A program made the position numbers and the translations under genes. Of a stretch of DNA of 64,000 nt, positions 4,156 through 62,642 are shown piece after piece (within the stretch, counting starts at the first letter, position 1; every line of letters starts with the position of its first letter). The notes beneath the pieces were generated by a model. The model saw nothing but the letters and a program-made list of their open reading frames with translations. It did no database searches and had not been told where the DNA came from. Source of the DNA: Winogradskyella pacifica (GTDB lineage: Bacteria > Bacteroidota > Bacteroidia > Flavobacteriales > Flavobacteriaceae); the NCBI RefSeq assembly GCF_013403915.1, contig NZ_JABFDI010000005.1:62001-126000 (forward strand). The letters run 5' to 3'.

Positions 4156-5257
4156 CGCTCTAGAAACTATTCTCGAAATTGATTTAAGTGCGCTAACGCA
4201 TAATTTCAATTATTTAAAGTCGAAACTTCAGCCGGAAACAAAATTTTTAGCCGTAGTGAAAGCCTTCGCTTATGGTAGCGATTCTGTAGAAATTGCAAAA
4301 CATCTTCAGAAATTAAACGTAGATTATTTTGCTGTTGCTTACACGCAAGAAGGAGTAGTTTTAAGAGATGCAGGAATTACAACTCCCATTATTGTACTTC
4401 ATCCACAGTCTGTAAATGCAAATATACTTATCGATAGATGTTTAGAGCCTAGCATTTATAGTGCGCATGTTTTAAGTGAATTTATTAAAACTGCTGAAGC
4501 GCAATCTCAAAAAAATTATCCGGTTCATATAAAATTTAATACAGGATTAAATAGACTCGGTTTTAAAAATAACGATATTGAAACCATTGTTACTTCGCTT
4601 AAAAACACGTCATCAGTTAAAGTGAAATCTCTGTTTTCACATTTAGTGGCTAGTGAAGATCCCAACGAATTAGAGTTTTCCAATCTTCAAATTGAACGGT
4701 TTAAAACAATCGCAGAAAATTTTGAAGAAGGCATAGGTGATAGACCTTGGTTACATATGTGTAACACTTCTGGTATTCTCAACTATCCTGAAGCGCATTT
4801 TAATATGGTGCGCAGTGGTATTGGACTTTATGGATTTGGAAATTCTGATGAGGAAGATAAAAACCTCAAACCTATAGCAAGTTTAAAATCTGTGATTTCT
4901 CAAATTCACGAGATTGAAAAAGGAGAAACCGTAGGTTACAACAGAGCTTACATTTCTAAAGGATTGGAAAGAACAGCAACCATACCAATTGGGCATGCTG
5001 ATGGTATTAACCGTATTTATGGAAATGGAAATGGTTATGTAATGATCAATGGGGAAAAGGCACCAATAATTGGTAATGTCTGTATGGATATGATAATGGT
5101 AAACGTTACAGATATCAATTGTAAAGAAGGAGATGAGGTTATTGTTTTCGATTCTACTTATACAGCAAGTAACTTAGCTGAATCTGCACATACAATTTCT
5201 TACGAAATTCTAACCGCAATATCGCAACGTGTTAATCGCGTTTTTAAGCGTTCATAA
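4148..5257 (+). CDS. alr: Alanine racemase
   Basis: This PLP enzyme interconverts L- and D-alanine for peptidoglycan precursors. The protein is 369 residues: an N-terminal TIM barrel with the PLP lysine in VVKAFAYGS (Lys38), then a C-terminal beta domain with [10 protein letters not shown]. The usual second catalytic residue is the tyrosine of GYADG. Here the motif reads PIGHADG, placing histidine at residue 283, so the base for one proton-transfer direction appears substituted. The rest of the family pattern is intact. It is coupled to tdk through an 8-bp overlap. Confidence 0.92.
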
Positions 5258-5340: not shown

Positions 5341-5742
5341 ATGTTAAAAGAATTTAAAGAATTTGCAATGAAGGGCAACCTTATAGACATTGCTGTTGGT
5401 TTTGTAATGGGTGCCGCTTTTAAAGAAGTAGTTACCGCATTTACAGGAGGTATTGTATCTCCATTAATTGGGATGATTTTCGACTCAGACTTTAAAGCGT
5501 TGAGATACCAGTTAAAAGAGGGAACGTTAAATGATGCTGGCGAAATGGTTGGTGATGTTTTCTTAGAATACGGTACATTTTTAACTAATGTAATAGATTT
5601 TATCATTGTAGCATTTGTAATGTTCCTTGTGGTAAAAGGTGTTAATAATATGAAAAAGAAAGAAGAGCCTGCACCAGCTGCGCCTGCAGGACCATCTGAA
5701 GTTGAGTTATTAATCGAAATCAGAGATTCATTAAAAAAATAA
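5341..5742 (+). CDS. mscL: Large-conductance mechanosensitive channel
   Basis: MscL is a pentameric inner-membrane channel that opens under extreme tension to release solutes after hypo-osmotic shock. The 133-residue protein begins with the characteristic amphipathic N-terminus (MLKEFKEFAMKGNLIDIAVG). TM1 (GFVMGAAFKEVVTAFTGG) follows, then a periplasmic loop, TM2 (IDFIIVAFVMFLVVKGVN) and a short charged cytoplasmic helix. An Ala/Pro-rich linker (EEPAPAAPAGP) lies before the last helix. A strong intrinsic terminator lies about 40 bp downstream, so this is the end of a transcription unit. Confidence 0.97.
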   Translation: MLKEFKEFAMKGNLIDIAVGFVMGAAFKEVVTAFTGGIVSPLIGMIFDSDFKALRYQLKEGTLNDAGEMVGDVFLEYGTFLTNVIDFIIVAFVMFLVVKGVNNMKKKEEPAPAAPAGPSEVELLIEIRDSLKK

Positions 5743-5781
5743 ATCACGTATAGCGTCATCGCTACACTACTATTTTTAACT

Positions 5782-5815
5782 AAACCCAGACTGTAACAGT
5801 CTGGGTTTCTTTTTG
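5782..5815 (+). terminator. Intrinsic terminator after mscL
   Basis: A perfect 12-bp inverted repeat, AAACCCAGACTG and CAGTCTGGGTTT, is separated by a 3-nt loop (TAA). It is followed by a T-rich tract. Stem and T-run fit a rho-independent terminator in the plus direction. Confidence 0.9.
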
Positions 5816-5926
5816 TAATTACAAAATCAATAATTTATACCCTTTATTTTTATTAGAATTTTAAGACTAATTGAAGGCTTTACTTAAAGAAATATTATAA
5901 TTTTGAGAGTTCTAAAAATATGTTTT

Positions 5927-6916
5927 ATGAAAGTAGCAATTGTAGGTGCAACAGGCATGGTTGGTAACGTAATGCTTAAAGTATTAGAGGAACGTAATTT
6001 TCCTTTAGATGAGTTATTACTAGTAGCTTCAGAACGTTCTGTAGGTAGTAAATTAAAATTTAAGGGTAAGGATATTGAAGTGATTAGTATTCCTACTGCT
6101 ATCGAAAAACGTCCAGATATTGCGTTATTTTCAGCAGGTGGTAACACGTCTTTAGAATGGGCACCAAAATTCGCAGAAGTTGGTACAACAGTCATTGATA
6201 ATTCTTCAGCATGGAGAATGGACTTATCAAAAAAATTGGTAGTTCCAGAAATTAATGCTGGTGAGTTAGAAAAAACAGATAAAATTATAGCTAATCCTAA
6301 CTGTTCTACGATTCAAATGGTAATGGCATTAGCACCACTTCATAAGAAGTATAAAATTAAACGTATTGTTGTTTCAACATATCAATCTGTATCTGGTACA
6401 GGTGTAAAAGCTGTTGAGCAAATGGAAAATGAAATTGCAGGTATAAAAGGTGAAATGGCATATCCGTATCCAATTCATAAAAATGCAATTCCACATTGTG
6501 ATGTTTTTGAGGAGAATGGTTATACCAAAGAGGAGATGAAATTGGTAAATGAAACTCAAAAGATTCTTAATGATAAATCGATTGCAGTAACAGCAACTGC
6601 AGTTAGAATTCCTACCGCTGGTGGTCATAGTGAAGCAATCAATGTAGAGTTTCATAATGATTTTGATGTTAGTGAGGTAAGACAATTACTTAACGATACA
6701 GATGGCATTACAATACAAGACAATTTAGATGTTAACGTATATCCTATGCCTATGTATGCTAATGGTAAGGATGATGTTTTTGTTGGTCGTATTAGACGAG
6801 ATGGCTCTCAACCTAACACTTTAAATTTGTGGGTGGTTAGTGATAATCTTAGAAAAGGAGCGGCGACAAACACCGTTCAGATAGCAGAATATCTTATTAA
6901 AAATGCTTTAGTATAG
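5927..6916 (+). CDS. asd: Aspartate-semialdehyde dehydrogenase
   Basis: The enzyme reduces aspartyl-4-phosphate to aspartate semialdehyde with NADPH, feeding lysine/diaminopimelate, threonine and methionine synthesis. From ATG at 5927 the protein is 329 residues and opens with the Rossmann motif MKVAIVGATGMVGNVML. An upstream in-frame TTG at 5903 would put eight residues before this motif, so I prefer the ATG. The catalytic cysteine is Cys126 in ANPNCSTIQ. The substrate-binding segment IPTAGGHSEA is present near residue 230. It has no close plus-strand neighbours and appears monocistronic. Confidence 0.95.
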   Translation: MKVAIVGATGMVGNVMLKVLEERNFPLDELLLVASERSVGSKLKFKGKDIEVISIPTAIEKRPDIALFSAGGNTSLEWAPKFAEVGTTVIDNSSAWRMDLSKKLVVPEINAGELEKTDKIIANPNCSTIQMVMALAPLHKKYKIKRIVVSTYQSVSGTGVKAVEQMENEIAGIKGEMAYPYPIHKNAIPHCDVFEENGYTKEEMKLVNETQKILNDKSIAVTATAVRIPTAGGHSEAINVEFHNDFDVSEVRQLLNDTDGITIQDNLDVNVYPMPMYANGKDDVFVGRIRRDGSQPNTLNLWVVSDNLRKGAATNTVQIAEYLIKNALV

Positions 6917-7062
6917 TTTCTTTTAAAGCAGATTAGATTATTTTAAAATAGCGTACATTCAAGGATTTCAACCGATTATTTGTGTAATTAGTTGAAATTC
7001 TGCATATATTGTCATTCCAAATTTACTCTTAGTGGTTTGTTATTAACAAGCAACTAAAACCT

Positions 7063-7070
7063 TACATTTG
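7063..7070 (+). promoter_or_regulatory. -7 promoter box for the prolyl oligopeptidase gene
   Basis: TACATTTG matches the Bacteroidota TAnnTTTG box and lies about 30 bp before the ATG at 7102. A TTTG at 7036-7039 could act as the -33 element, although the 23-nt spacing is a little long. Confidence 0.5.
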
Positions 7071-7101
7071 AAGTGGAGTCCTTATTAAAAAAAATCTAGT
7101 T

Positions 7102-9267
7102 ATGAAAAAAATACTTCTTTCTGCTTTAGTGCTAACAATTTTTGGGTCTTGTAAAAATGAAAGCGAAACTGTGAAAATGACTACGATAGATTACCCTGAA
7201 ACGAATAAAATAGATACTGTAGATACTTATTTTGGTGAGTCTGTAGCAGATCCCTACCGATGGTTAGAGGACGATAGAAGTAAAGAAACTGAAGCTTGGG
7301 TTAAGAATCAAAACGACGTTACTTTTGGTTATTTAGAGCAGATTCCTTATCGCGAAGAATTAAAAGAACGTCTTACAAAACTTTGGAACTACGAAAAAAT
7401 CGGTGCACCATTTGTAGAAGGAGATTATACGTATTTCTCTAAAAATGATGGTTTGCAAAACCAATCCGTAATTTATAGATACAAAACAGGAGGGGATCCT
7501 AAAACAGCTGAGGTTTTCTTAGATCCAAATACGTTTAAAGAAGACGGAACAATTTCGTTAGGAGGTATGAGCTTTTCTAAAAACGGAAAGACATTAGCTT
7601 ATGCGATTTCTGAAGGTGGAAGTGACTGGCGAAAAGTTTTGGTATTAAATGCTGAAACTAATGAGATTATTGAAGACACATTGGTTGATATAAAATTCAG
7701 CGGTATGTCTTGGTATAAAAATGAAGGTTTCTATTACTCTAGTTACGATAAGCCAAAAGGAAGCGAGTTATCTGCTAAAACGGATCAGCATAAAGTGTAT
7801 TATCACAAATTAGGAACAAAACAATCCGAAGATAGATTAGTCTTTGGTAGTACCCCTGAAGAAAAGCACCGATATATTGGTGGTGGTGTTACGGAAGATG
7901 ATAAGTACTTAGTTATTGTCGCAAGTGTTTCAACTTCTGGAAATAAGTTGTTTATCAAAGATTTATCACAACCAAATAGTAAACTTGTAACTATTTTAGA
8001 TCACACAAATAGTGATTCTCACATTATCGAAAATGTAGGTTCAAAGCTTTACATTATGACCAATTTGGATGCTCCAAATCAAAAAATTATAACCGTAGAT
8101 GCTTCAAATCCAACTCCAGAAAATTGGGTGGATTTTATTCCTGAAACAGAAAATGTTTTAAGCCCTTCAACTGCTGGAGGTTACTTTTTTGCCAACTATA
8201 TGGTAGATGCGGTTTCAAAAGTATCGCAGTACGATTATAACGGAAAACTAATAAGAGAGGTTGAATTACCAGGAATAGGTACGGTTGCTGGTTTTGGTGC
8301 AAAGAAGGACGAAACAGAGCTATATTATTCATTCGCTAATTATGTAACGCCAGGAAGTATTTATAAATACAATATAGAAAACGGGACTTCAGAATTATAT
8401 AGAAAGCCGAGTATTGATTTCAATCCAGAAGACTACGAAAGCAAACAGGTGTTTTACAAGTCTAAGGATGGTACAAAAGTACCCATGATTATTACGCACA
8501 AAAAAGGTATAAAGCTCAATGGTAAAAATCCAACGATTCTTTATGGCTACGGTGGATTTAATATCAGCTTAACTCCAAGTTTTAGTATCGCAAATGCGGT
8601 TTGGATGGAGCAAGGAGGTGTCTATGCAGTACCAAACCTTAGAGGTGGTGGTGAATATGGAAAAGCATGGCACGATGCAGGGACACAGCTTAAAAAACAA
8701 AACGTTTTTGATGATTTTATTGCGGCAGCAGAATACCTTATATCAGAAAAGTATACCTCATCAGATTTCTTAGCCGTAAGAGGTGGCTCTAATGGAGGTT
8801 TGTTAGTTGGAGCAACAATGACACAACGTCCAGATTTAATGAAAGTGGCTTTGCCTGCTGTTGGTGTTTTAGACATGTTACGTTACCATACGTTTACAGC
8901 TGGAGCTGGTTGGGCTTACGATTATGGAACTGCTGAAGATAATAAGGAAATGTTTGAGTATTTAAAAGGCTATTCTCCTGTTCATAATGTAAAAGAAGGA
9001 GTAAAATATCCAGCAACATTAGTTACTACAGGAGATCATGATGATCGCGTGGTACCAGCACATAGTTTTAAATTTGCTGCAGAATTGCAACGTAAGCAAA
9101 CTGGTACTAACCCAACACTTATTAGAATTGAAACAGATGCTGGCCATGGAGCGGGGACACCTGTAAGCAAAACGATTGAAGAGTATACAGATATTTTTGG
9201 GTTTACCTTATATAATATGGGATTTGAAGTATTACCAACTAAAACAGAGGAAAAAGTAAAGGGCTAG
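7102..9267 (+). CDS. Prolyl oligopeptidase family serine peptidase (S9A), lipoprotein
   Basis: The enzyme cleaves short peptides after proline. A lipoprotein signal peptide (residues 1-17, FGSC) predicts anchoring in the cell envelope. Residues about 40-110 and 480-721 form the alpha/beta-hydrolase domain, and the segment between them is the seven-bladed propeller that limits access to small substrates. The catalytic triad is visible as Ser563 in RGGSNGG, Asp648 in DHDDRVVP and His682 in DAGHGAG. Length (721 residues) is normal for S9A enzymes. A -7 box lies 30 bp upstream. It appears to be a single-gene unit. Confidence 0.93.
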
Positions 9268-13352: not shown

Positions 13353-14267
13353 ATGCTTCAAGTAAAAAATGTCACTTTCGGGTATTCTAAAACTAAGGTT
13401 TTAAAAGCTATTGATTTTAATGTTGAAGCCGGAGAAAACCTTGCTATTATTGGCGAAAGTGGCTCTGGTAAAAGCACGCTATTAAAACTTATATACGGCG
13501 AGTACGATTTAAAACAGGGTCTGATTTTTTGGAAAGATGAAGAGATTCTTGGTCCAAAATATAATTTGGTTGTGGGTTACGATTTTATGAAATACGTGAC
13601 CCAAGAATTCGACTTAATGCCGGTGATTACAGTTGAAGAAAATATAGGTAAACACTTATCACGCTTTTACCCTGAAGAAAAACAAAAACGCACTGAGGAA
13701 TTAATAAAAGTGGTAGAACTTGAAGCCTTTGCAAATACCAAGGTGAAATTCTTAAGTGGCGGACAAAAACAACGTGTAGCGATTGCTAGAGCATTAGCAA
13801 AAGAACCCGAAATCTTATTACTAGACGAACCGTTTAGTCATATTGATAATTTTCAAAAACAAGGCTTGCGACGTAATGTTTTTAATTACTTAAAATCAAA
13901 ACATATAGCGTGTATTGTTGCGACTCACGACAGAAATGATGTGCTTGGCTTTGCAGACGAAATGATAGTGCTTAGCGAGGCTGAAATCATAGCTAAAGAC
14001 ACACCTCAAAATTTATATAAAAATCCTAAGCAACCATTAATCGCTTCATTTTTTGGCGAATTTAATGTCATAGAACCCTACGGAATTGTGTATGCTAATC
14101 AGATTCAAATTGTAGACGACTCAGATTTAAAAGCTGTTGTGGAAACGTCTTATTTTAATGGAAGTTCGTGGTTGATTGAAGCGGATTATAAATCTGAATC
14201 AATATTTATTGAGCATAATTTGGAGTTAAAAAAAGATGCCGAAATTCAATTTTCAATCTCTTCATAA
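13353..14267 (+). CDS. Orphan ABC transporter ATP-binding protein
   Basis: This 304-residue nucleotide-binding subunit has all key motifs. They are Walker A GESGSGKST (residues 34-42), the signature LSGGQKQR (about 134), Walker B ILLLDEP (about 154) and the H-loop THDR (about 190). After residue 225 comes a small beta-rich, TOBE-like region, as in ATPases of importers of the polyamine, molybdate or iron type. No permease or binding protein is adjacent, so the substrate is unknown. The 3' end overlaps the convergent WYL regulator gene by 22 bp. Confidence 0.88.
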   Translation: MLQVKNVTFGYSKTKVLKAIDFNVEAGENLAIIGESGSGKSTLLKLIYGEYDLKQGLIFWKDEEILGPKYNLVVGYDFMKYVTQEFDLMPVITVEENIGKHLSRFYPEEKQKRTEELIKVVELEAFANTKVKFLSGGQKQRVAIARALAKEPEILLLDEPFSHIDNFQKQGLRRNVFNYLKSKHIACIVATHDRNDVLGFADEMIVLSEAEIIAKDTPQNLYKNPKQPLIASFFGEFNVIEPYGIVYANQIQIVDDSDLKAVVETSYFNGSSWLIEADYKSESIFIEHNLELKKDAEIQFSISS

Positions 14268-15256
14268 TTTCTTAATGAAGTTTTTAGTTTTTTAAGCATT
14301 CTGTTCCTCAATTTTAGTGGTTTTAAAACTTCAATAGTATCACCAAAGCCTAAAATAAGACGTTCCAATTCAAAATTAATTTGCACAAAAATATTGAAAA
14401 TCACACCGTCCTCTTTTTCTTCAATAATACGCTGCGACGGATGAAAAGGTTTTGTAATGACATAAGGAGCGTTTTTATGATCTATTTTAAATTGAATCCG
14501 TTCAGCTCTAGAATTTGATACGGTAACACCAACAACATCTCTATAATAGACGTCACCATCAATTTTGAAATCTTCATAAATTTCATCATCAAGCGATACA
14601 ATTTCAGTCATTCTGTCTAAAGCCAAAGTGATAAATTTTCCTTTTTGACTTGCTAATAAAAACCACCTGTTATTAAATTCTTTTAGTAATTGTGGATGTA
14701 CAATCATCACACTTGCTTTTCGTGCTTTAAAAGATTGATAAGTTACTTCAATCACCTTTTTAGTTTGAATAGCATCGTATAAAACATCGATAAATTCAAG
14801 CCCTTTTAGCTGTTCGTTTTTATCTAAATGAATAATAGCACGTTTGTCTTTCTGTGATGAATTTACCGAATCTTCCAAACGTTGTAAAACACCATCCATT
14901 TCTTTAAATAACGAAAAATCTTTAAACTGTCTCAGTAACTGAATCGCCTCATTCATCACTGTTATATCCTTATCGGTTACAGGAATATTAATAATGCTAT
15001 AATCAGCATCCTCATATTTATAAAACTTACGATCATAAACCACAATGGGTGCATTATAACCCAGCTTGTCGCTTCGCATCATTTGTAAATCTAACTGAAC
15101 AGTTCTTTTGCTGACATCAACAGCTTTGCCTTCGTATTCGTATAAAGCATCCGAAACCGCTTCAATTAAGTCATTAAGCGTCCATTGTCTAAACTGGTTT
15201 TGAAGACATTTATCAATGGTTTTATAGCGTATTAATGCGTTTTTGTTTACTGCCAT
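14246..15256 (-). CDS. WYL-domain transcriptional regulator
   Basis: This 336-residue protein has a DeoR-like winged helix-turn-helix N-terminus (about 1-70, with WTLNDLIEAVSDALYEYEG), a helical linker, a WYL domain (about 145-230) and a C-terminal WCX region (about 245-330). The family's W-Y-L element appears as RWFLLASQ. WYL domains are thought to bind nucleotide or nucleic-acid ligands and often control DNA-damage, defence and RNA-repair operons. It is transcribed divergently from the 206-residue gene. A 19-bp near-palindrome between them (15321-15339) recurs in front of the tRNA-like array and rtcB. I infer that this protein reads that site; the sequence cannot say whether it activates or represses. 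Confidence 0.9.
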   Translation of the reverse strand: MAVNKNALIRYKTIDKCLQNQFRQWTLNDLIEAVSDALYEYEGKAVDVSKRTVQLDLQMMRSDKLGYNAPIVVYDRKFYKYEDADYSIINIPVTDKDITVMNEAIQLLRQFKDFSLFKEMDGVLQRLEDSVNSSQKDKRAIIHLDKNEQLKGLEFIDVLYDAIQTKKVIEVTYQSFKARKASVMIVHPQLLKEFNNRWFLLASQKGKFITLALDRMTEIVSLDDEIYEDFKIDGDVYYRDVVGVTVSNSRAERIQFKIDHKNAPYVITKPFHPSQRIIEEKEDGVIFNIFVQINFELERLILGFGDTIEVLKPLKLRNRMLKKLKTSLRNYEEIEN

Positions 15257-15320: not shown

Positions 15321-15356
15321 TACGCAAAAACATTGCGCATATCAATCAAATATTTG
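15321..15356 (+). promoter_or_regulatory. Operator/promoter copy 1 (before the 206-aa gene)
   Basis: TACGCAAAAACATTGCGCA (15321-15339) is a near-palindrome with arms CGCAA and TTGCG around 5 nt. Exactly 11 nt later comes TATTTG (15351-15356) in the context AAATATTTG, a likely -7 element. The ATG of the 206-aa gene follows 17 nt downstream. The same arrangement is found at 17006-17041 and 19277-19312. Confidence 0.85.
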
Positions 15357-15373
15357 TCTCAAATACTAAATCA

Positions 15374-15994
15374 ATGGAAACTTTAAAACTTAAAATATAC
15401 GATGTATTAAAAGAAGAAATAACCATTTCAGAATTTGAAAATTGGTTATATAATTCTGAATATATGAAAACTGAAATCAAAGCAGATTCATTATTATTTG
15501 ATGTCATAAATATTAATTATAGACTCGAAAATTCTTTGAAAATCCTAAAAAATTTGAGCTTAAAAAATTTTTCAGAAGAAGAACTTTTAATTTTTAAATT
15601 AGAATATAATTGTTACAAGATAGTTAACTCGGAAGATACTAAAAACTATAAAAAATATGTTCTAAACATAATTCAGGATTTTGAATTTGACAATGACTTT
15701 GAAGGCTTTGGGGAGTTTTACTATATCTACTACTCTTTTGATGGTTATGATTATAATCAATATCAAAACATATCATCCAATAATCTAAATTCAAAAACCA
15801 AACATTTAGCAAATTCACTATTAAAAAGCTTGAAAAATTGTAATAGTATTGAGGAAAAAATTAAAACGCTTAAGCTTAAAAAAGAACCCGAAAATGACGA
15901 GGAAAATATCAATGTTTTAGAGTTTAAAAGTTTACAAAGCAATAAAAAATTAACCTTAGTTCAAAAATTATTTGCATTTCTCAAAAAAATATAA
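15374..15994 (+). CDS. Hypothetical protein under the shared WYL-locus operator
   Basis: I do not recognise this 206-residue protein. It is mostly helical, rich in Lys, Asn, Glu and Leu, with no signal peptide, membrane helix or catalytic motif. A Tyr/Phe-rich patch near residues 112-135 (FGEFYYIYYSFDGYDYNQY) is striking. The C-terminus is basic (LVQKLFAFLKKI). Codon use looks more AT-rich than in neighbouring housekeeping genes, which suggests an accessory gene. The 19-bp operator plus -7 box sits directly in front of it, so it should be expressed together with the tRNA-like array and rtcB. An immunity-type or RNA-binding protein would be possible, but nothing in the sequence decides this. 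Confidence 0.75.
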   Translation: METLKLKIYDVLKEEITISEFENWLYNSEYMKTEIKADSLLFDVININYRLENSLKILKNLSLKNFSEEELLIFKLEYNCYKIVNSEDTKNYKKYVLNIIQDFEFDNDFEGFGEFYYIYYSFDGYDYNQYQNISSNNLNSKTKHLANSLLKSLKNCNSIEEKIKTLKLKKEPENDEENINVLEFKSLQSNKKLTLVQKLFAFLKKI

Positions 15995-16450: not shown

Positions 16451-16999
16451 ATGAAAACCATGGACACGAATTTGTTAAACAACTACGTGCTTAAAGCCAT
16501 AGATGCTTATCCATACGAACTAGAAGAAACTGTAGAAAATCTAAACTACGCCTTATCCTATGAATCTAACAATGCTTATGCTTTGTATTTAATGGGACGT
16601 TTACAAGCCGAACAATTTGGCGATTACGAAAAAGCCAAGCACTATTATGCAGAGGCTTTGGCAAGCAAACTGGATTTTCACAAAGTGTATGCGCACTACA
16701 TTTTAGTTTTAATATGGAATGAAGATTACGACGAAGCTCAGAAATTAATTGATTTCGCATTGACTGTAAAAGGAGTCTATAAAAGTGAAATCCAACTATT
16801 TCAAGGCTGCGTTTTTGAATGTCTTCAGAAATATAAGAAAGCATTAAAGGCTTTAAAGCTCGCAAAGCGATTAGGTTACAATAACAGTTACATCAGCTTT
16901 ATAGATTCTGAAATGAAAAGAATCAAGAATAAAATGAAACCTGAAAAGACTAAAAAAACTAAGAGCAAGAAGAAAAAAAAGAAGAAAAACAAAAAATAA
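16451..16999 (+). CDS. Tetratricopeptide-repeat protein with a poly-lysine tail
   Basis: This 182-residue soluble protein is built from about four TPR-like helical pairs (residues 15-155). Recognisable repeat cores are NNAYALYLMGRLQAEQFGDY, HKVYAHYILVLIWNEDYDEA and YKSEIQLFQGCVFECLQKYK. The last 22 residues are almost all lysine with Thr, Ser and Asn, a tail typical of nucleic-acid or acidic-partner binding. Either ATG 16451 or ATG 16460 could be the start. It ends 6 bp before operator copy 2, immediately upstream of the tRNA-like array. An adaptor that binds RNA is an attractive but unproven idea. Confidence 0.75.
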   Translation: MKTMDTNLLNNYVLKAIDAYPYELEETVENLNYALSYESNNAYALYLMGRLQAEQFGDYEKAKHYYAEALASKLDFHKVYAHYILVLIWNEDYDEAQKLIDFALTVKGVYKSEIQLFQGCVFECLQKYKKALKALKLAKRLGYNNSYISFIDSEMKRIKNKMKPEKTKKTKSKKKKKKKNKK

Positions 17000-17005
17000 T
17001 TTAAC

Positions 17006-17041
17006 TACGCAAAAAGATTGCGCAATAGCTCAGAATATTTG
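17006..17041 (+). promoter_or_regulatory. Operator/promoter copy 2 (before the tRNA-like array)
   Basis: TACGCAAAAAGATTGCGCA (17006-17024) and TATTTG (17036-17041) are separated by exactly 11 nt, as in the other two copies. No protein starts nearby. The predicted transcript begins near 17047 and runs into the tRNA-like array and then the slipin gene at 18076. Confidence 0.85.
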
Positions 17042-17151
17042 CAGAGTAATTAATTAGAAGTCTTTTTGGAATCAGATTTTTAAAGGTAGCGCTCTGCTAG
17101 AAAAAGGAGTCTAGCAGAGCTTAATAAAAGTTCTTTAACATAACAAAAAAC

Positions 17152-17292
17152 GGAAGCATAGAGCAATTGGTTGGCTCGCCTGACTGAAATGCGTTTTTAC
17201 GCATTCAACGAATCTTATTTATAAAAATAAAAATTGTTGAGTTAAAATCTGATTTCATAATGAACGTGTAGGTTCGAGTCCTACTGCTTCCA
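17152..17292 (+). ncRNA. tRNA-like unit A, normal order with an enlarged anticodon region
   Basis: The acceptor strands GGAAGCA (17152-17158) and TGCTTCC (17285-17291) pair perfectly over 7 bp. The D-arm is GAGC-AATTGGTTG-GCTC (17161-17177), and the T-arm is GTAGG-TTCGAGT-CCTAC (17268-17284). After the D-arm, CCTGA-CTGAAAT resembles a 5' anticodon strand and loop with anticodon GAA (Phe-like), but no TCAGG partner follows. Instead about 65 extra nt fold into AATGCGT/ACGCATT and TTATTT/AAATAA hairpins. No CCA is encoded. It is not a normal functional tRNA gene. Confidence 0.75.
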
Positions 17293-17391
17293 CATCAAGC
17301 AAGTCTTGTTAAGTGTTTCTGTATAGCACTATTGTATAAATCCTTACTGTTTAGTATGAGGTTTTTATATGCAACTTGACTTGAAGGCTTC

Positions 17392-17478
17392 GGTTATTAG
17401 CCAAATAATAACCACCATCTATGTACACAGGTTCGAATCCTGTCTTCTCTAACGGGAAGTAGCTAAGTCCGGTTAAGC
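17392..17478 (+). ncRNA. tRNA-like unit B, permuted order
   Basis: The order along the RNA is as follows. A hairpin GGTTATTA/TAATAACC with loop GCCAAA (17392-17413) comes first. The T-arm ACAGG-TTCGAAT-CCTGT (17427-17443) is next, then the 3' acceptor-like strand CTTCTC (17444-17449) and a 4-nt loop TAAC. The 5' acceptor-like strand GGGAAG (17454-17459) and the D-arm GCT-AAGTCCGGTTA-AGC (17462-17478) complete it. CTTCTC and GGGAAG pair over 6 bp with one G-U. The 5' part resembles tRNA-Pro. Confidence 0.65.
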
Positions 17479-17492
17479 AGTAGATTCAATAT

Positions 17493-17588
17493 GTAGGTTC
17501 GAATCCTACCAAGATCAAACGGTCTTGTGGCGGAACTGGTAAACGCTCAACACTTTGGATGTTGTTTTGAAATGGACTCATAGTCCAT
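17493..17588 (+). ncRNA. tRNA-like unit C, permuted order with a complete anticodon-type arm
   Basis: The T-arm GTAGG-TTCGAAT-CCTAC (17493-17509) is followed by CAAGATC (17510-17516), loop AAAC, then GGTCTTG (17521-17527). The last two strands pair over 7 bp with one G-U. A D-arm like that of tRNA-Leu follows (GCG, loop with GG, CGC; 17530-17546). Next is a perfect anticodon-type arm, CAACA-CTTTGGA-TGTTG (17548-17564), whose loop would present UUG. A long hairpin ATGGACT-CAT-AGTCCAT (17572-17588) resembles a large variable arm. The T-half thus precedes the D-half. Confidence 0.7.
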
Positions 17589-17700
17589 ATCCCAGAGCTG
17601 GTTAACTCACAAAAAGGACCACCAAGTGCGTCACACTTTAAATGGCAAAAACAAAGTGAACTAAAACTCGCAATAGCAACTTGTTGTTAGCGCAGTCTAG

Positions 17701-18075
17701 AAAACACCTTGACATATAAAATGTATTATAGGTCGCTTTAGGTATTCTTTTAAAGATTCATTTTTCAATAAACGTTTCGGCAATAGTCGTTTCTGTTTTG
17801 ATAAATCATCTGCAAAACAAGTCTTAAAACACTTAAAATCTATTGTATTTCCGTAGTTAGAAAGATGGTTTTCTTTCGCTTTGTTTTAATTGAATAGTCA
17901 TTCTGGAAAACGGAATTCTATTATAAATGTATAACCGTTCTGAAGTAAAAAAAAAGAAAACTAAAGGACAAAAAATTAGAAATCATGAACCATCCATAAC
18001 TATAAGTTAGTCGTCTGGTTCAGGTGATTAAATGGATGCACCATTTGATAATTAAATAACAATAAAGCAGAACAA
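17701..18075 (+). other. Non-coding leader between the array and slipin
   Basis: No gene is seen here. Near its end are two hairpins. TGAACCA/TGGTTCA (17986-17992 with 18016-18022) encloses TAACT-ATA-AGTTA, and AAATGG-ATGCA-CCATTT spans 18030-18046. These lie 30-90 nt before the slipin start and could influence its translation. No clear promoter or terminator is visible. Confidence 0.5.
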
Positions 18076-19176
18076 ATGAATAGAGAAAGAATTCATGCAG
18101 GTACAGTAGGTTTGGTGTTTAAAAATGGTAATTACACGCGTGTTATTACGGAAGGAAAACATTGGATAAAATTTAGCGAGCAAGTCTTAAGATGCGATTT
18201 GTCACAAGCTTTCAGTGCGCCAAAAGCATTAGAAATCTTGCTTAAAGATGAGGTTTTAGCAGCAATGTTAACTCTAATTGATGTAAAGGATAATGAGATT
18301 GTTTTGGTTTACGAAAACAAAAACTTTAAACGCATCTTAACTGCTGGTCGTTATACATTTTGGAACAGCTTAATTGACTACAAATTTGTAACTGCCGATT
18401 TAAGTAAAATCGAAATTACAGAAGACATCAGTAAAGCCTTGTATAGCAACATGCAATTGCGTCAATACATTAGAACTTTTGAAGTTGCCGCTTTTGAGAA
18501 AGCTATTATGATTGTTAATGATACGTTTGTTAAAATCCTTGAACATGGTACTTACCATTTCTGGAAAAACGAGCAAACCATTAAAATCGCAAAAGCCGAT
18601 ATGCGTCAATTGCAATTAGAAGTTGCTGGTCAAGAATTATTAACCAAAGACAAAGCGACCGTTCGTATTAACTTTTATGCACAATACAAGGTTACAGATA
18701 TTGAAACGGCGTTAATGCAAAACAAAGATTACGAAAAGCAATTGTACACTATTTTGCAATTGGCATTAAGAGCGTTTGTTGGCGCTTATACTTTAGACGA
18801 ATTGTTAGAGCAAAAGGAAACGATTGCCGAAGCGGTTTTGAAAAACGTAAAAACACAAGCCACCAAGTTAGGTGTCAATGTATTGCATGCGGGTGTTAGA
18901 GACGTCATTTTACCAGGTGATATGAAAGAGATCATGAACCAAGTTTTAATGGCGCATAAAAAAGCACAAGCCAATGTAGTGACAAGGCGAGAAGAAACAG
19001 CTTCTACTCGTAGTTTGTTAAACACCGCTAAATTAATGGAAGACAACAGCATGTTGTTTAAATTAAAAGAGATGGAATATGTTGAGAAAATTGCTGATAA
19101 AATTGGCGAAATCACAGTTGCTGGTAACGGCAATGTTATTGAACAATTAAAAGATATTTTCTCTGTGAATAAGTAA
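18076..19176 (+). CDS. Slipin/SPFH (band 7) family protein, apparently soluble
   Basis: This 366-residue protein carries an SPFH/band-7 domain (about 120-300), recognisable in KATVRINFYAQYKVTDIETA, LRAFVGAYTLDELLEQKETI and the GVNVLHAGVRDVILPGDMKE stretch. A helical Ala/Glu/Lys-rich tail (about 305-350) follows. The N-terminal 115 residues contain two related segments (GLVFKNGNYTRVITEGKHW and VLVYENKNFKRILTAGRYT) and no transmembrane helix, unlike membrane-anchored stomatins. SPFH proteins form large ring or cage oligomers. Slipins of this kind are recurrent neighbours of rtcB in bacteria, which fits here: rtcB follows 220 bp downstream. A scaffold for RNA repair is an inference. Confidence 0.88.
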   Translation: MNRERIHAGTVGLVFKNGNYTRVITEGKHWIKFSEQVLRCDLSQAFSAPKALEILLKDEVLAAMLTLIDVKDNEIVLVYENKNFKRILTAGRYTFWNSLIDYKFVTADLSKIEITEDISKALYSNMQLRQYIRTFEVAAFEKAIMIVNDTFVKILEHGTYHFWKNEQTIKIAKADMRQLQLEVAGQELLTKDKATVRINFYAQYKVTDIETALMQNKDYEKQLYTILQLALRAFVGAYTLDELLEQKETIAEAVLKNVKTQATKLGVNVLHAGVRDVILPGDMKEIMNQVLMAHKKAQANVVTRREETASTRSLLNTAKLMEDNSMLFKLKEMEYVEKIADKIGEITVAGNGNVIEQLKDIFSVNK

Positions 19177-19276: not shown

Positions 19277-19312
19277 TACGCAAAAATATTGCGCAACACA
19301 CTATAATATTTG
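19277..19312 (+). promoter_or_regulatory. Operator/promoter copy 3 (before rtcB)
   Basis: TACGCAAAAATATTGCGCA (19277-19295) is followed after exactly 11 nt by TATTTG (19307-19312). The rtcB start codon lies about 84 nt further on. The leader contains a CACTGAGCG-type repeat (19327-19380). Confidence 0.85.
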
Positions 19313-19320
19313 TAGTGTGA

Positions 19321-20790
<1,470 letters not shown>

Positions 20791-61088: not shown

Positions 61089-62642
61089 ATGGGTTTAAAA
61101 CGCTTTTTTTCAATAGTTCTTTTGAGTTCTGCTTTCTTGTTAAATGCTCAAATTAAAGAGCAGCAACTCGATAAACTCATCACAGAAACCTTAAGTACTT
61201 TTGATGTACCTGGTATTTCTGTTGGTGTTTATAAAGATGGAAAAGTCGTTTACGCTAAAGGTCATGGTGTGCGTTCGCTAACCAATAAAAAAGACATGAA
61301 CAATGAAACATTAGTTGGGGTCGCGTCTAATAGTAAGGGATTTACGTGTTTTGCATTGGCGATGATGGTTGATGCTGGGAAGTTGAATTGGGATGATAAA
61401 GTGCGTAAGCATATTCCAGAATTTCAATTACACGATGCTTGGGTCACTGAAGAATTCACGGTTAGAGATTTGGTGACACATCGCAGTGGAATGGGATTGG
61501 GTGCAGGAGATTTAATGTTTTTTCCTGAAGGCAGTGATTTTACAGTGAACGACATTATTAATAATGTAAAATATTTAGAACCTGAAAGTTCATTTAGAAG
61601 CAAATTTGCATATAATAACAATATGTTCATCATAGCGGGTGAAGTTTTAAAACGTACGAGTGGTTTGTCTTGGGAAGACTTTATTGAAACCAAGATTATG
61701 AAACCAGTTGGGATGACAAATAGTAAAGCATCTTATAATCGTGTTTCAGATAAATCGAATATTATTGATGCGCATACGATGGCAGAAGGAAAGGTAATTC
61801 AGATTCCACACGATTGGAGTGAAACAGCTAATCCTGCAGGAGGAATTGTGAGTAATGTTCCGGATATGTTAACTTGGGCTCAATTTTTAATGAACGATGC
61901 GGTTACCCAAAATGGTGAACGTTTATTAAGTGCTAAACAATTTCATGAACTTTGGCAATTGCAAACTCCTTTAAATGTATCTCCAAATGATTCATACGAT
62001 TCTAATTTTAAAGGCTACGGATTAGGTTGGTTTGTTGCCGATGTTAAAGGTGGTTTTAAACAAGTGTATCATACAGGTGGTTTGTTGGGAACCGTAACAC
62101 AGTTTACTATGATCCCAGATTTAGATTTAGGCATTGTGGTGTTAACAAATCAAATGAATGGTTCTGCTTTTAATACCATCACAAATACAATTAAAGATGC
62201 TTATCTCGGTTATGAAAGTCGAAATTGGTTAGAGAAGTACGGCAAATCTAATGCCGATAATATTATTTATAACGACAGTATAAAAGCTGCAGTGTATTCA
62301 AAAGTTGAAAAGGCAAAAACACTTAAATCAATACCGAAACCAAAACAAATTATCGGGACTTATACAGACGATTGGTTTGGTGATGTGATGATTTCTCACG
62401 ATTCAAAAAAGGGATATACCATAAAGAGTGAGCGTTCATCAAGATTGTTTGGTGAATTGTTGCCATTTAATGCGACTACCTTTGTGGCGAAATGGAACGA
62501 TAGAAGTTATGATGCAGATGTTTACGTGAAATTTACCTTTAACGAAAAAGGAGAAGCGGTTTCAGCGACCATGAACTATATTGCGCCAATTACTGATTTT
62601 AGTTTCGATTTTGGTGATTTAGAACTTAAGAAAACGAACTAG
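61089..62642 (+). CDS. Class C beta-lactamase-like serine hydrolase
   Basis: This 517-residue exported protein has a signal peptide (about 1-20) and a beta-lactamase-family domain (about 25-370). The SxxK nucleophile is Ser80 in ASNSKGF, the YxN-type motif is in FAYNNNMF, and an HTGG stands in place of KTG. The C-terminal 110 residues (IGTYTDDWFGDVMIS...) form a DUF3471-like lipocalin-type domain. Such enzymes are peptidases or esterases rather than true resistance determinants. The brnQ-like gene starts right after its stop. Confidence 0.9.
   Translation: MGLKRFFSIVLLSSAFLLNAQIKEQQLDKLITETLSTFDVPGISVGVYKDGKVVYAKGHGVRSLTNKKDMNNETLVGVASNSKGFTCFALAMMVDAGKLNWDDKVRKHIPEFQLHDAWVTEEFTVRDLVTHRSGMGLGAGDLMFFPEGSDFTVNDIINNVKYLEPESSFRSKFAYNNNMFIIAGEVLKRTSGLSWEDFIETKIMKPVGMTNSKASYNRVSDKSNIIDAHTMAEGKVIQIPHDWSETANPAGGIVSNVPDMLTWAQFLMNDAVTQNGERLLSAKQFHELWQLQTPLNVSPNDSYDSNFKGYGLGWFVADVKGGFKQVYHTGGLLGTVTQFTMIPDLDLGIVVLTNQMNGSAFNTITNTIKDAYLGYESRNWLEKYGKSNADNIIYNDSIKAAVYSKVEKAKTLKSIPKPKQIIGTYTDDWFGDVMISHDSKKGYTIKSERSSRLFGELLPFNATTFVAKWNDRSYDADVYVKFTFNEKGEAVSATMNYIAPITDFSFDFGDLELKKTN

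Follow-up and report, generated by a model that had tools for sequence, protein, structure and literature searches.

One of the closest described relatives of the RNA treated here is the Y RNA YrlA (Rfam RF02553), which is encoded in the rsr-yrlBA-rtcBA operon of Salmonella (PMC7790460). A bacterial Y RNA is circularly permuted relative to transfer RNA (tRNA) (PMC11472068), and in Deinococcus Y RNA tethers Rsr to PNPase, with the roles of Rsr and Y RNA stated as an open question in the same source (PMC7790460). Here we analyse a 64,000-nucleotide stretch of DNA from Winogradskyella pacifica (Flavobacteriaceae; positions 62,001 to 126,000 of contig NZ_JABFDI010000005.1, assembly GCF_013403915.1; hereafter the window, numbered from its first letter), in which an array of tRNA-like modules precedes the genes for a slipin, which is an SPFH/Band 7 protein, and for the RNA ligase RtcB. 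Like YrlA, the array has a permuted T-arm, acceptor hairpin and D-arm and lies in an RNA-repair locus. Unlike YrlA, it has tandem modules, a slipin partner and extra anticodon-type hairpins, and Ro60/TROVE was found in none of 59 genomes, that of W. pacifica included. The YrlA model matches the window at 17398-17503 with 28.4 bits and 12 other slipin loci with 41.5 bits at best, below its gathering score of 69. The array thus appears to be a tRNA mimic with the layout of a Y RNA, paired with slipin and without Ro60, in cultivable marine bacteria.

A second point of comparison is Anabaena, where TrcR controls the trn operon, rtcB and slipin (PMC10272220). That system resembles the loci studied here in bringing a tRNA array, rtcB and slipin together under a single stress regulator. 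It differs in that the trn array lies on a plasmid apart from rtcB and the regulator is of the RHH type, and the available text of that report mentions no permuted RNA (PMC10272220). An SPFH gene also lies within the rtc locus of Pseudomonas aeruginosa (PMC13086221). In the text available from the open-licence PMC literature, no description of a slipin-linked permuted array was found. An SPFH/Band-7 protein, an RNA ligase, an RlaP-type nucleotidyltransferase and a tRNA-like RNA were reportedly brought together in RNA-repair systems by Burroughs and Aravind in 2016. Our array would resemble that RNA at this general level, and the tandem permutation, the triplet turnover and the operator-like motif described below stand outside the comparison. 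Given that a tRNA-like RNA linked to Band-7 has reportedly been published, we rate the present array as a variant on that theme. To our knowledge, the role of slipin in RNA repair is an open question.

Permuted modules upstream of slipin

Three T-arms lie on the forward strand at 17268-17284 (GTAGGTTCGAGTCCTAC), 17427-17443 (ACAGGTTCGAATCCTGT) and 17493-17509 (GTAGGTTCGAATCCTAC), where a sequence-only reading of this stretch had placed them. The second and third each lead into a hairpin (CTTCTC-taac-GGGAAG and CAAGATC-aaac-GGTCTTG) whose 3′ strand, read by hand, runs directly into a D-arm. The acceptor-like stems noticed in the same reading are therefore present, as hairpins that link a T-arm to the next D-arm in permuted order. 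In these two units, modules A and B, the tRNA order is rotated at the anticodon and a small loop closes the acceptor end, and the order of T-arm, acceptor hairpin, D-arm and anticodon side is that of YrlA. Module A (17418..17484) comprises a closing stem (TCTAT/GTAGA), T-arm, acceptor hairpin and D-arm and scores 55.3 bits with covariance model R1. Module B (17493..17571) comprises a T-arm, acceptor hairpin, D-arm and anticodon arm and scores 80 bits with covariance model R2, the window being among the sequences from which R2 was built. ARAGORN, taken as the test for a functional tRNA gene of normal order, calls none in the window. Rfam reports one tRNA match above its cut-off, at 17152-17292 (39.4 bits, anticodon region split; here module 1), and two below it, at 17459-17510 and 17521-17600. 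The earlier claim that none of these elements forms a normal tRNA thus holds for the window, but not for relatives such as L032 and L033, where an intact tRNA-Tyr(GTA) occupies the place of module 1.

For the comparison we combined 20 fetched regions, 80 relatives from named genomes that were the best among at least 552 (8 duplicates removed) and the window into 93 loci; the 80 relatives kept are Flavobacteriaceae genera or members of Flavobacteriaceae, Flavobacteriales and Bacteroidia. One locus with 492 nucleotides upstream (L122) was left out of module counts, which leaves 92. With rows unselected by pairing, these loci have 244 T-arms in the 1 kb before slipin, of which 164 fit a strict rule for permuted order; in 50 trials in which acceptor strands were dealt out among the T-arms, the mean was 19.3 and no trial exceeded 30. 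Every locus has at least one strictly permuted T-arm, and 60/92 have at least two.

The stems of both modules also covary. Alignment A2 (module A; 32 of 66 parsed units) has 96.3% of its cells paired, compared with 77.9 in shuffles and at most 53% in slid controls, and alignment A3 (module B; 35 of 103 parsed units) has 96.2% paired, compared with 68.6 in shuffles; these percentages are raised by selection, which tells against taking them at face value, in that the parser itself demanded T-arm, acceptor and D-arm pairing and the rows were picked by hand where the acceptor loop was short or the layout clear. Two-sided changes occur in 14/21 pairs of A2 and 17/21 of A3, including all 7 acceptor-hairpin pairs in both modules. 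Since the parser demanded other pairings, fair evidence comes from the module B anticodon arm, where every cell is paired (100%) and 5/5 pairs have changed on both sides, and from the fourth pair of the module A closing stem (18 A-U, 13 G-C, 1 other). By eye, at least 8 of the 103 parsed units are spurious (T-arms of GOLLD RNA or of tRNA arrays), none of them in A3. The window itself is absent from A2, where a close relative is present. The sequence-only reading had named stems without conservation or covariation in relatives as the outcome that would count against it, and this outcome did not occur. Comparison shows the interval from about 17041 to about 18000 to be a conserved region of predicted structured RNA upstream of slipin, and there is good support for reading it as a conserved tRNA mimic with tandem permuted modules.

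Slipin and repair partners

Strong slipin orthologues are present in 19/37 Winogradskyella genomes and in 2 more among the 60 genomes examined, that of W. pacifica included. An R1 match of at least 55 bits lies beside slipin in 19/19 of these Winogradskyella genomes, whereas none of the 18 genomes of the genus without slipin passes 48 bits with R1, stricter filters having been used. R1 was built from module A, so the match is by construction in the 7/19 genomes that gave A2 rows; the other 12 gave none. R1 also matches Ro60 loci in three fetched regions of the phylum, with the same module order as at slipin, and this shared order ties the permuted slipin RNAs to the Y RNA kind. At L175 and L176, tandem permuted modules adjoin Ro60-type genes, at L175 also with RtcR and RtcB. 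As genome-wide detectors R1 and R2 were set aside as weak, since tandem canonical tRNAs score with both, up to about 60 bits.

An SPFH protein and an RNA ligase occur together in the window (slipin, 18076..19176, PF01145; RtcB, 19396..20790, PF01139). Among the 20 fetched loci, an rtcB match was found in 11, and a ligase lies near slipin in at least 12 (11 RtcB, one T4-type; the other 8 were searched for RtcB only). In L051, a T4-type RNA ligase, PNKP and a methyltransferase-like protein (below cut-off) follow slipin in the place of RtcB (5640-8344), and in L032 two RlaP proteins lie downstream of rtcB. Permuted modules are present in the fetched loci without an rtcB match as well. Slipin is the constant partner of the module within the genus; RtcB is not.

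Anticodon-type arms

Two anticodon-type arms end the module series: AC1 (17548..17564; CAACA-CTTTGGA-TGTTG), which is the arm of module B that covaries in A3, and AC2 (17572..17588; ATGGA-CTCATAG-TCCAT), which combines a conserved stem with a variable triplet. Such hairpins number 180 in the 92 loci with T-arms removed; with T-arms included there are 262, compared with 6.8 in mononucleotide shuffles. In 74/92 loci the last D-arm is followed by a hairpin of 5 base pairs and 7 loop nucleotides, whatever the loop sequence, compared with 6.9 (largest 12) in letter shuffles. Without a limit on the stem, a second hairpin was found in 44 of 74 loci, and its stem is ATGGA/TCCAT or one base off in 35/44.

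AC2 was found in 43/93 loci, a further restriction on the case made here given that the pattern fixed most of the stem, and 41 of them were placed on the slipin tree, which leaves out 2/93 loci with slipin translations of at most 300 amino acids. From position 32 to position 38 of the loop, the changes inferred number 2, 1, 15, 5, 5, 0 and 1, so that positions 34-36 account for 25/29 (p 1.8e-6 in a binomial test, provided the changes are independent). The AC2 triplet has undergone at least 20 changes among 10 kinds (shuffles, 23.8), and that of AC1, placed in 72 loci, 38 changes among 15 kinds (shuffles, 43.2). These values lie near the shuffled expectation, indicating that the tree signal is nearly gone. 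Fast triplet turnover beside a conserved stem is suggestive of selection acting on the triplet.

Operator-like motif and presumed locus control

A putative operator, TACGCAAAAANATTGCGCA, occurs in three exact copies in the window, where 0.09 matches would be expected even if up to 3 mismatches were allowed; the rest of the genome holds no match that has fewer than 3. All three copies sit in this one locus: between the gene for a WYL-domain protein and the next open reading frame (15321..15339), ahead of the RNA array (17006..17024) and ahead of rtcB (19277..19295). Only exact copies count here, since a backward control pattern matches the genome 7 times within 3 mismatches. In the alignment of the three sites, each copy is followed by AATATTTG (17034..17041 at the array), a putative promoter element. 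When up to 3 mismatches are allowed, 61 of the 93 loci have the motif upstream of slipin and 29 have it downstream, and the backward motif lies upstream of slipin in none. The WYL and WCX domain protein (14246..15256, reverse strand; PF13280, PF25583) is the presumed regulator of the slipin-RtcB locus and, to judge by position, may bind the motif. Several relatives and the distant L051 have upstream open reading frames that start in the same way (MAVNKNALIRYKTIDKCLQN or near). Since no motif copy lies between the array and slipin in the window, we infer that a single transcript starting at the 17006 site would cover both.

Possible functions of the slipin leader

We propose to read the slipin leader as a tRNA mimic of YrlA-like kind that would serve both as a ribonucleoprotein handle and as an anticodon bait or sensor, a proposal whose mechanism, as judged from conservation and layout, stands at about even balance. 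Under this proposal, cutting of tRNAs would lead the WYL protein to permit expression of the locus, and the permuted bodies would bind a slipin complex, as Y RNA does with Ro, while displaying tRNA elbows and anticodon-like loops. The loops could act as bait or sensor for anticodon nucleases, and RtcB, or in L051 the T4-type ligase with PNKP, might re-seal both bait and real tRNAs. The target range of such nucleases would explain the fast triplet turnover. A fuller version, in which the slipin-bound bait evolves, its triplets being swapped in an arms race with nucleases so that it is cut instead of tRNAs, re-sealed by the neighbouring ligase and used as shield and reusable damage sensor, is somewhat unlikely.

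Besides the effects of selection on the pairing percentages and on the AC2 set, several observations weigh against this proposal. Folded as a single sequence, 17395-17620 does not stand out (z -1.75; 15/200 shuffles fold as well), and the case for permuted modules rests on comparison for that reason. The strict permuted rule also fires on 43/320 control T-arms further upstream, in a zone that holds tandem tRNA arrays in some loci. R1 is unspecific at low scores, since at E <=0.001 it matches 252 of 296 genomes in the phylum; several that were inspected are tandem canonical tRNAs, and matches away from slipin occur (for example 61.2 bits in genome G037). Slipin has a stop in G002 and lies in two pieces in G031, yet the permuted modules persist, which fits a strict slipin partnership poorly. 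An rtcB match is missing from 9/20 fetched stretches, L043 among them, where the contig has 5.4 kb. The sequence-only reading had proposed a family of tRNA-mimic RNAs serving as RtcB substrate, decoy or damage sensor; the mimic family, conserved and of YrlA-like layout in an RNA-repair locus, is borne out, but the tie to RtcB is not. Changes in AC1 are spread more widely than in AC2 (positions 32-38: 13, 3, 24, 24, 17, 14, 13), and columns that change fast occur in the module B T-arm too, among them one in the T-loop with 33 changes in 90 loci, which keeps the triplet result short of proof of selection.

Part of this proposal could hold by itself, with the permuted bodies tethering slipin to RtcB or to a nuclease and the anticodon-type loops not serving as bait. 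Such a YrlA-like handle would account for the module order and covariation, which are as in YrlA-type RNA, and has a precedent in the tether to PNPase in Deinococcus (PMC7790460). We consider it possible though on the unlikely side, as it leaves the triplet-focused changes beside a nearly fixed stem unexplained. A cis-acting leader that controls slipin, for example through RNase P/Z processing or by sensing cut or uncharged tRNA, is quite improbable: the array spans the distance from the presumed promoter to the slipin start and is conserved throughout, but the number of tandem modules varies and the operator-like motif already seems to set expression. The putative three-site regulon and the natural record of anticodon swaps make the bait, handle and leader models testable.

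Decay of tandem tRNA genes, in which adjacent tRNA halves give the permuted look, was suggested by the canonical tRNA arrays upstream in 6/20 fetched loci and by the scores of tandem canonical tRNAs with R1 and R2. It is disfavoured by the acceptor hairpins of modules A and B, where each of the 7 pairs has changed on both sides, by the control with dealt-out acceptors (164/244 unselected T-arms permuted vs 19.3) and by upstream pairing, as 5/162 permuted modules could pair with an upstream strand into a full 7-bp acceptor, compared with 276/320 control T-arms; we regard it as very improbable. Permuted pre-tRNA genes occur in algae, and RtcB might likewise join the ends of these modules into a working tRNA, but this is scarcely credible, since the anticodon arm of module B is closed within the module itself and modules also occur where no rtcB is nearby, even if module A is open at the anticodon end, long acceptor loops occur and RtcB is near in the window.

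Module 1 and other features of the locus

Module 1 (17152..17292) is a tRNA-Tyr-type body of normal order whose anticodon loop is interrupted, after position 34, by an insert of 57 nucleotides with two hairpins (17187..17243, borders uncertain by 1-2 nucleotides). A pattern search found 17 Tyr-type modules, and 6 of them carry an insert of about 57 nucleotides at this position: those of the window, of three further loci in the genus, and of Oceanihabitans L058 and Lacinutrix L116. Its first hairpin shows compensatory changes (GCG/CGC, GCC/GGC, GCT/AGC). In the window, the anticodon stem around the insert pairs at only 3/5 positions, so module 1 may have lost its function here. One possibility is that the insert is an intron joined by RtcB; if the evolving-bait version were true, it could be either such an intron or a further exposed bait. 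A mobile element was rejected, as the insert is single-copy in its own genome.

Among the remaining features, all on the forward strand, a 206-amino-acid protein without a Pfam match (15374..15994) and a TPR-type protein (16451..16999; Pfam TPR marginally below cut-off) precede the array, and in many relatives an open reading frame similar to the latter does so too. The array starts with a hairpin (GCTCTGCTAGA/TCTAGCAGAGC; 17091..17120) that shows, by eye, compensatory changes in several relatives, and a multi-hairpin domain conserved in a 12-locus alignment (17296..17383) joins module 1 to module A. The leader remainder (17589..18000) is conserved in the alignment and non-coding, with no listed open reading frame of at least 50 amino acids. 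An upstream ATG lies about 90 nucleotides (17985-18075) before the slipin start in the window, at the position where slipin begins in the aligned relatives.

In other phyla, a T-arm or tRNA-like body was seen by eye upstream in four slipin loci. Their R2 scores are 33 bits in Subdoligranulum (L134), 21.6 in Escherichia coli (L132), 16.2 in Citrobacter (L133) and 17.3 in Burkholderia (L135, T-arm alone), and only Subdoligranulum is convincing on these scores. The Citrobacter slipin has RtcR and a nucleotidyltransferase as neighbours, and in the Burkholderia slipin leader (4602-4705) a GAAA-capped stem, by eye, replaces the anticodon arm of a tRNA-like body. Carriage by phages was rejected, as a search of 50,697 phage records gave a single weak match.

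Between 7 and 20 canonical tRNA genes lie upstream of the slipin RNA in L038, L043, L045, L046, L047 and L048, resembling the Anabaena trn array; of the 24 tRNA calls in L038, 20 belong to the array and one lies on module B. GOLLD is a giant RNA found in tRNA arrays (PMC6582537, PMC12286853). It is distinct from the RNA described here and has no match at the window locus. In 4/12 scanned slipin loci, GOLLD matches marginally below the Rfam cut-off (129.9-149.9 bits vs 150) lie upstream of the permuted modules (L046:2985-3482, L035:8293-8778, L038:7965-8467 and L044:6099-6598). The GOLLD 3′-end motif occurs in 19/93 loci.
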